In this document: positions 39,818-40,882 of the stretch, piece by piece | Position numbering within the stretch: the stretch's first letter is position 1 | How the letters are laid out: each line of letters starts with the position of its first letter | Origin: an uncultured Fibrobacter sp. | GTDB taxonomy: Bacteria; Fibrobacterota; Fibrobacteria; Fibrobacterales; Fibrobacteraceae | Assembly (NCBI GenBank): GCA_946407235.1 | Contig: CAMJNF010000005.1 | Location: forward strand, 1 to 40,882 | Reading direction: 5' to 3' | DNA: 40,882 nt | Notes under the pieces: generated by a model | The model's input: the letters and a program-made list of their open reading frames with translations, nothing else | Told to the model about the DNA's origin: nothing | Database searches by the model: none | Position numbers and translations under genes: made by a program

Positions 39818-39846
39818 TTGCCATGCGCCATTGGGATTGATATTTT
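39818..39846 (+). promoter_or_regulatory. trp promoter, leaderless geometry
   Basis: TTGCCA (39818-39823), a 17-base spacer and TATTTT (39841-39846). The first ATG of the leader peptide lies 6 bases later (39853) and a second directly follows (39856), so transcription should begin at or next to AUG. No Shine-Dalgarno sequence precedes it. Confidence 0.7.
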
Positions 39847-39852
39847 TGTGGC

Positions 39853-39909
39853 ATGATGAATTTCGTAACAAATGCAACTCTCAACCGTCGTTGGTGGCGC
39901 GGACTCTAA
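39853..39909 (+). CDS. trpL: trp leader peptide with tandem Trp codons
   Basis: An 18-residue open frame, MMNFVTNATLNRRWWRGL, ending at TAA 39907-39909. Two adjacent TGG codons at 39892-39897 make Trp 2 of 18 residues, a strong enrichment for the rarest codon. Downstream lie the attenuator stems and then trpE. The role would be to measure charged tRNA-Trp: the ribosome stalls at the TGG pair when tryptophan is short. The peptide itself needs no function. Either the ATG at 39853 or at 39856 could be the start; neither has a ribosome site, but the promoter position suits leaderless initiation. The arrangement is that of the classical E. coli trpL; I did not expect it in this phylum, and whether it is described there I cannot check. 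Confidence 0.85.
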   Translation: MMNFVTNATLNRRWWRGL

Positions 39910-39987
39910 CATAGAGCCCGGTATTTGTTACAAATCACCCAAGATTTTTAAGCAAAGGCTTCCGGACTCACGGAGGCCTTCCTTTTT
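39900..39987 (+). promoter_or_regulatory. trp attenuator: alternative antiterminator and terminator stems
   Basis: Strand 1 CGGACTCT (39900-39907), just after the Trp codons, pairs with strand 2 AGAGCCCG (39913-39920). Strand 2 (GAGCCCGG, 39914-39921) can instead pair with strand 3 CCGGACTC (39962-39969). Strand 3 is part of the terminator stem AAGGCTTCCG/CGGAGGCCTT (39955-39980, 10 bp with one G-T pair), followed by CCTTTTT. Thus stalling at the TGG codons would hide strand 1, let 2 pair with 3 and allow read-through. Completing the peptide would cover strand 2 and let the terminator form. A further perfect 9-bp pair, GTAACAAAT (39865-39873) with ATTTGTTAC (39923-39931), encloses strands 1 and 2. 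Confidence 0.85.
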
Positions 39988-40074
39988 ACCGAAAATTGAC
40001 GAAATCCTCCGGGACTTAAAGCCTTTGTGAACCTTAAACGAAAAGGCAAACAAGTTTTAAACTAGAGGATTAAA

Positions 40075-40882
40075 ATGACTAAGATTACTCACATCACCGA
40101 TCGCCCGGGTTACGCTCCACGTACAGACAGCATTTACGTTGCACTCCCCGGAGAACGTTACACCCCGTTTTCACTTGCCAAGAAGCTCGGCGCAAAGGCA
40201 ATTTTTGAATCCGCCAGCTTTGACCACGGTCGCAGCCGCTATTCCACTTTGATGGTGGACGAAGGTTTCCGCCTGCGCCAGAACGACAAGAACGTAAGCA
40301 TTGTCGTGGACGGCAAGGAAAGCGAATTCTTGGCTGAAGGAGATGGCGATATTCTCGACGCACTGCTCAAGATTTCTGCAGAAAACACGGTGCCGCCCAA
40401 CCAGATTCCGATTCCGTCTTCGGGCGTGGGCTACCTCGGCTACGAATTCTGCGCCCGCTGCGATACCATTCGCCTCGCCCCGCAGGTGGACGAACTCAAC
40501 ATTCCCGAAGCAGAATTCTTGGTGGGTCACATTTACATTGTGTTTGACCACTTCACCGAAAAGCTTCATTTGTTCGCACTGAACTACGAAGAACACCAGA
40601 TTGACTTGAAGGCCGCCATTGAAAAGGTGAAGGCACGCCTCGCCGACTTGGACTTCAGCTACCTCGCCCCGGAACAGCAGTACGGCAAGGGCATCACGAT
40701 GACGGACCTGGAACAGTCCCGCAAGGAATACGTAGAGAAAGTCGCCGCCTTGCAAAAGCACATCATCGCCGGCAATATCGTGCAGGCCGTGCCATCCCGC
40801 CGCATCCAGTTCGCAAGCGACATCGCAGCGCTGGATATTTACCGCAGGCTCCGCACGGTGAACCCGTCTCCGTACATGTTCT
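40075..40882 (+). CDS. trpE: Anthranilate synthase component I, N-terminal part (cut by window end)
   Basis: 269 residues are visible; the gene continues past the window. GAGGA lies 5 bases before the ATG at 40075. TrpE makes anthranilate from chorismate and ammonia (supplied by TrpG), the first step of tryptophan synthesis. FESASFDHGRSRYSTLMV (about 43-60) is the region that binds feedback-inhibiting Trp in homologues (LLES motif). SSGVGYLGYEF (about 116-126) and the start of the chorismate-binding core are clear: YVEKVAALQKHIIAGNIVQAVPSRRIQFASDIAALDIYRRLRTVNPSPYMF. The gene lies 88 bases beyond the attenuator and so should be controlled by both enzyme feedback and transcription attenuation. 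Further trp genes probably follow outside the window. Confidence 0.96.
   Translation, partial: MTKITHITDRPGYAPRTDSIYVALPGERYTPFSLAKKLGAKAIFESASFDHGRSRYSTLMVDEGFRLRQNDKNVSIVVDGKESEFLAEGDGDILDALLKISAENTVPPNQIPIPSSGVGYLGYEFCARCDTIRLAPQVDELNIPEAEFLVGHIYIVFDHFTEKLHLFALNYEEHQIDLKAAIEKVKARLADLDFSYLAPEQQYGKGITMTDLEQSRKEYVEKVAALQKHIIAGNIVQAVPSRRIQFASDIAALDIYRRLRTVNPSPYMF

Follow-up and report, generated by a model that had tools for sequence, protein, structure and literature searches.

The 3' end of the window, that is, the whole stretch of 40,882 nt of DNA that was analysed, carries trpE, coding for anthranilate synthase component I, preceded by a promoter, a short leader ORF with two adjacent Trp codons, a set of competing RNA strands and an intrinsic terminator (Table 1). 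The trpE product, read from the ATG at 40075, matches PF04715 (E 4.9e-17) and PF00425 (E 2.7e-8); the gene is incomplete because contig C5 of this 245-contig assembly ends there. Full-length TrpE proteins of relatives have TIGR00564 as their best match and, in a relative, a gene for a TrpG-TrpD fusion (trpGD, NF011201 over cut-off) follows directly 3' of trpE. The TrpE relatives with 82-99% identity are Fibrobacter records, and the genome itself is assigned to Fibrobacter by its close relatives.

The original prediction had described a complete trp attenuator at this place, and its promoter, leader ORF, TGG pair, strands 1 to 3, terminator and trpE were all located, at most one base away from the positions given there. 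Strand 1 is CGGACTCT(A), its first base lying two bases past the Trp codons, and strand 2 is (T)AGAGCCCG(G), of which the prediction had listed AGAGCCCGG (39913-39921). Helices 1:2 and 2:3 contain one A-C mismatch pair each. The terminator stem of 10 bp, including one G-U pair, encloses the loop GACTCA and is followed by CCTTTTT. Three short ATG ORFs with tandem Trp codons were found on the two strands of the window, and trpL alone sits upstream of a trp gene.

Table 1. Features of the trpE leader region, in positions of the window.
Feature	Position	Strand	Description
Promoter TTGCCA-N17-TATTTT	39818..39846	+	TTGCCA 39818-39823, 17-nt spacer, TATTTT 39841-39846
Leader ORF trpL	39853..39909	+	18 codons, MMNFVTNATLNRRWWRGL, and stop TAA 39907-39909
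Helix A, 5' strand GTAACAAATGC	39865..39875	+	Within leader codons 5-8; pairs with 39921-39931
Tandem Trp control codons TGG TGG	39892..39897	+	Columns invariant in 27 diverse sequences
Strand 1 CGGACTCTA	39900..39908	+	Overlaps leader stop codon; pairs with strand 2
Strand 2 TAGAGCCCGG	39912..39921	+	Common to 1:2 and 2:3
Helix A, 3' strand GTATTTGTTAC	39921..39931	+	Adjoins strand 2 on its downstream side
Intrinsic terminator	39955..39987	+	Stem 39955-39964/39971-39980, T-run to 39987
Strand 3 CCGGACTC	39962..39969	+	Antiterminator partner of strand 2; within terminator stem
Terminator complement AAGCCTTTGT	40019..40028	+	Complementary to terminator 5' flank and arm (39952-39961); 10 bp in main Fibrobacter group
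SD-like AGAGGA of trpE	40064..40069	+	From sequence; leader ORF without such a motif
trpE, anthranilate synthase component I	40075..40881	+	Incomplete at contig end; PF04715, PF00425

The terminator complement was rejected as a general element, as it is not kept in other genera. The longer stretch at 40007-40028 (CCTCCGG...AAGCCTTTG) complements the terminator arms and could form a structure after readthrough; it is confined to the main group of the genus.

Conservation and covariation of the leader

A match to the TrpE of the window was found in 87 of the 111 genomes of the family. Loci with the same TrpE type and sufficient upstream DNA were compared and, with duplicates removed, 70 distinct leaders from Fibrobacterota were obtained, in which promoter, WW or WWW, strands and terminator are all present. 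Such a WW or WWW leader was seen at every inspected locus of this kind, except for two with trpE directly behind trpA. In one of these (G080), trpE-GD is joined to trpBA, and the apparent loss is explained by a copy that precedes trpB and thus the whole merged operon; in the other (G061), the covariance model R1 described below finds one at a distance of 2.4 kb on the upstream side of trpE. The leader peptides differ outside the Trp codons (MMNFVTNATLNRRWWRGL, MNYTIITLNGNNWWWRTSKSEYAC, MNFICTNNNWWWQTQ and others), with N-terminal residues that vary. Within the genus, the C-terminus RRWWRGL and the strand sequences are strongly kept, and across genera Trp codons and base pairing alone are. The TGG pair and the pairings, whose absence from relatives had been named as evidence against an attenuator, are retained in the family genomes, including 1:2, 2:3 and the terminator, and this conservation in related genomes places the trpE attenuator beyond chance.

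Covariation was analysed in an alignment of 27 sequences, in which the TGG TGG columns are invariant. The terminator-state structure was paired in 75.9% of the cells, versus 45-52% at one-column slides, and both-side changes amounted to 55 cells versus 33±4 in shuffled alignments, a value reached by none of 500 shuffles. In the terminator stem, 88.9% of the cells were paired, with both-side changes in 5 of the 10 pairs, and in the 2:3 helix 81% were paired, with 7 both-side cells (4/500 shuffles). Covariation is strongest in 1:2 plus the terminator and modest in 2:3 alone. Conserved parts, covarying helices and mutually exclusive strands are all evident in the aligned sequences.

The conservation within the genus, both of RRWWRGL and of the strands, would also be expected if attenuation were secondary to an action in trans, either of the leader peptide or of the short RNA left by termination, as shown for rnTrpL/peTrpL in Sinorhizobium meliloti (PMC7298713). 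However, across genera nothing but the Trp codons and the base pairing is kept, and each of the strong-scoring extra copies inspected lies directly upstream of a trp gene, which makes a principal action in trans improbable. An even smaller chance is given to a sensor of Trp or tRNA that dispenses with translation (T-box, TRAP-like or aptamer) and in which the ORF is accidental. The leader is structured, as such a sensor would be, but the tandem TGG stays invariant in a peptide that otherwise varies, leaders of like design that are rich in Leu or Ala lie upstream of leuA and of an aminotransferase gene, respectively, and neither a T-box nor another Rfam family matches at gathering. Specifically, T-box RF00230 gave no covariance match in the window, Trp_leader RF00513, which has the same role, gave no hit on the leader of the window, either at gathering or with the limit set to E<=10, and other Rfam families had no match on the leader.

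The leader has an additional helix, called helix A, between its first codons and the sequence behind strand 2. The helix finder picks stems for each sequence and thereby favours pairing, a bias controlled, for helix A alone, by a partner-swap test in which the 5' part of each leader was scored against its own 3' part and those of other species. Own partners summed to 343.6, versus 261.2±12.5 for swapped ones, and 0 of 20,000 swaps were as good. The sequences change from genus to genus (GCACAAA/TTTGTGC, ACGATCA/TGATCGT, AAACACAA/TTGTGTTT, AAGTACAGTA/TACTGTATTT) and the pairing is retained; judged by these comparisons, helix A covaries across genera. In the partner test, a small number of lineages (L066, L126) had a weak helix A or none, and in column counts, where it is misaligned, 57.8% was paired. 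Its 3' strand lies 23-28 nt past the last TGG in most lineages (range 21-42). The likely role of helix A is to lengthen the 1:2 hairpin, keeping strand 2 from strand 3 unless a ribosome is at the Trp codons.

Outside the family, 30 trpE loci of other Fibrobacterota families were scanned; most were without a Trp-rich leader, and two (G166 and G167) have differing Trp-rich leaders followed by a terminator. The leader L209 of G166 reads MKTSNNKVLMWWWQGN..., L210 of G167 has a GTG start and contains ...GRPWWRWC..., and the terminators of both, located before trpE, are GC-rich. It had been proposed that an attenuator in Fibrobacterota would be an independent or ancient case. The attenuator is there, but the claim on origin exceeds the evidence: with two differing leaders and most loci having none in the other families, the attenuator may have been inherited or have arisen independently. 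Upstream of the trpE of Treponema, whose TrpE is the nearest outside the phylum (55-62%), tandem TGG was absent in all but one case. In 32 of 38 of these Treponema loci (L074-L112), GTTACT/AGTAAC motifs occur within 150 nt upstream, often as a near-palindrome like GTTACTGTAAATAGTAAC, a possible repressor operator in place of an attenuator.

Leader initiation and ribosome-dependent folding

In the 70 distinct loci, the promoter hexamers are kept and the spacer is of 17 nt in 68 cases and of 18 nt in 2. The chosen leader AUG is found 6-10 nt after the -10 hexamer (6 nt in the window), and the larger values mostly correspond to the second AUG of an ATGATG whose first AUG is at 6-7. An SD-like motif precedes the leader AUG in 4 of the 70 loci, and the window leader is without one. 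Since the AUG falls at the predicted transcription start and SD motifs are this rare, the leader mRNA is probably leaderless. We also considered that this is a classical attenuator whose leader follows a short 5' UTR and is initiated in the ordinary way, in which helix A is a by-product lengthening the pause hairpin. The attenuator logic requires neither a leaderless start nor helix A, and E. coli manages without them: in its trp leader, a sequence checked against 5371 genomes, nothing resembling the helix A pairing is seen (p about 0.42). However, the distance between -10 and AUG is near-constant in the trpE, trpBA, trpCF and trpB-like leaders, as well as in those of leuA and the aminotransferase gene, there is no SD in 66 of 70 loci, and helix A covaries. 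Thus, we regard this alternative as unlikely, albeit the most serious of those weighed here.

Counted over whole genomes, a promoter directly before an ATG was commoner than in the reversed control in all 8 genomes tried, with 20 versus 5 occurrences in the own genome of the window. Promoters ending at the ATG were observed at L281 (metG-like), L282 (ispG-like), L284 (prfA-like) and L277 (metF-like), named by N-terminal sequence. As these are ordinary genes, leaderless mRNAs may be common in the genus.

When full leaders were folded at equilibrium, the terminator was favoured in nearly every lineage at any ribosome position. Because these folds did not discriminate between ribosome states, nascent RNAs ending before the 3' arm of the terminator were used, with the bases under the ribosome blocked, in 20 lineages; the outcome of the equilibrium folds suggests that the switch depends on co-transcriptional order. 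Blocking was applied also to the bases on the 5' side of the stalled ribosome, an assumption made because helix A was argued to be unable to close around the ribosome. P(2:3) was 0.98-1.00 in 20 of 20 lineages when the A site held the first Trp codon, and low, near 0, in 18 of 20 when it held the stop codon. In L068 and L139, the stop is located so far upstream that a ribosome standing on it does not block 2:3. A switch-like pattern was also produced by 16% of shuffled tails in the control of these nascent folds. In this model, the position of the ribosome decides between antiterminator and terminator.

The transcription start, leaderless initiation, Trp response and default-off lock by helix A that we infer would operate together as follows. 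Transcription would begin at or beside the leader AUG, and a ribosome would probably load on the leaderless mRNA. When charged tRNA-Trp is low, this ribosome would wait on the Trp codons, covering strand 1 and opening helix A; strand 2 would then pair with strand 3, the terminator would not form and trpE-trpGD would be transcribed. When Trp is plentiful, the ribosome would move on to the stop codon, which lies within strand 1, and cover strand 2, allowing the terminator to form. With the ribosome absent or gone, helix A and 1:2 would constitute one long hairpin holding strand 2, and termination would be the default. Ribosome-mediated trp attenuation with the logic of E. coli, as originally predicted, is supported by the conserved parts, the covariation and the ribosome-blocked folds. 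As 70 leaders share these parts with base-pair covariation, the reading is well supported, and we assign a probability of about 0.92 to the element upstream of trpE-trpGD being a ribosome-mediated transcription attenuator for tryptophan. The prediction was right on the strands, the terminator and the TGG pair, and it had missed the leader-closing helix, the further copies of the element and a start that is probably leaderless.

Further trp copies and candidate leaders for other amino acids

The covariance model R1, built from the 27 sequences and giving rough E-values, detected the element at E<=0.01 in 98 of 168 Fibrobacterota genomes, nearly all of these 98 belonging to the own family and two to a sister family. 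In related genomes the same element is also found upstream of trpBA, trpCF and a TrpB-like gene (NF009057), and in the own genome a copy for trpBA (G000:C82:7577-7698) exists besides that of trpE. On these sequence matches, the trp genes appear to form one regulon of separate attenuators. No Trp repressor scored above cut-off in Fibrobacter. Upstream of some trpBA attenuators, a second leader-like element lies in tandem (L199, G076:C9:35443-35571; G030:C9:36971-37099; G077:C170:2623-2750). It is without tandem Trp (MKLAIRFDACAACDEV...) and has its own terminator, and may be a decayed copy or a different sensor.

Probably leaderless, Leu-rich leaders (MRKTLNLLLLLSIATEARF and variants) followed by a terminator, often with a start-proximal helix, were found upstream of leuA (loci L296 and L327-L349; own-genome promoter at G000:C176:254-292). 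Likewise, probably leaderless, Ala-rich leaders (MNKIFGQNIAAKAAIAASPAAARAIVGLSKETKICKA) with a terminator precede the gene for a class I/II aminotransferase (NF005334 over cut-off), and these have a start-proximal helix of 11 bp, TCTTTGGACAG/CTGTCCAAAGA. The loci are L279, L291 and L297-L326 (among them G064:C1:616786 and G060:C1:495013), and the own-genome gene is at G000:C28:16324-16503. Several aminotransferase loci, among them the own-genome locus L309, yielded no leader. The Ala-rich leader is a candidate alanine attenuator; if true, Ala would be, to our knowledge, new among the regulatory amino acids of leader-peptide attenuation. Upstream of hisG and pheA, a search for His and Phe leaders gave no convincing case.

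Together, these leaders could represent a distinct design of amino-acid attenuator in Fibrobacteraceae, leaderless and with first codons that pair with the bases behind strand 2, so that the RNA would be off by default, perhaps with one ribosome per transcript. It would serve trpE-GD, trpBA, trpCF, the trpB-like gene, leuA (Leu codons) and the aminotransferase gene (Ala codons). We put this forward tentatively, at somewhat less than even odds.

Comparison with known attenuators

With this element, textbook trp attenuation reaches into Fibrobacterota, cellulose degraders of the rumen in which gene regulation has been little studied. It also provides a large natural alignment, with dozens of species and several operons per genome, for reading and testing attenuation rules, and leaderless initiation together with a start-proximal helix would offer a testable explanation of what keeps such a switch from leaking while it carries no ribosome. 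A search of the open-licence literature returned nothing joining Fibrobacter with leader-peptide attenuation; an earlier prediction may exist in subscription papers.

As in E. coli trpL, a short ORF containing tandem Trp codons, exclusive 1:2, 2:3 and 3:4 pairings and a terminator come before trpE, and the stop codon stands beside strands 1 and 2. The E. coli trp leader has a 5' UTR with an SD sequence, and TrpR is also present in that bacterium, where its Pfam family scores. In contrast, Fibrobacter has probable leaderless starts, several attenuated trp operons and no TrpR that we could find. The trpL of S. meliloti is leaderless, its RNA beginning at the ATG, and it contains consecutive Trp codons, with no repression of transcription (PMC7298713); of the three trp operons, trpE(G) alone is attenuated. 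In Fibrobacteraceae, unlike S. meliloti, trpE-GD, trpBA, trpCF and the trpB-like gene can each carry an attenuator. In Actinobacteria (Corynebacterium, Streptomyces), trp leader peptides that contain 2-3 UGG codons are described, along with terminators, as is the attenuation of two separate trp operons in C. diphtheriae (PMC1262725). The fibrobacterial attenuators differ from these in phylum and sequence, and neither a helix A nor a leaderless start is described in the account used here (PMC1262725). Such leaders had been said to be best known from Proteobacteria and Actinobacteria; they are already described in both (PMC1262725), and for this reason, as well as for the classical logic, the novelty is reduced. 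From the sequences compared, the mechanism would be the classical one, and the features that appear new are its occurrence in this phylum, a probably leaderless design, the covariation of helix A and the use in multiple operons.
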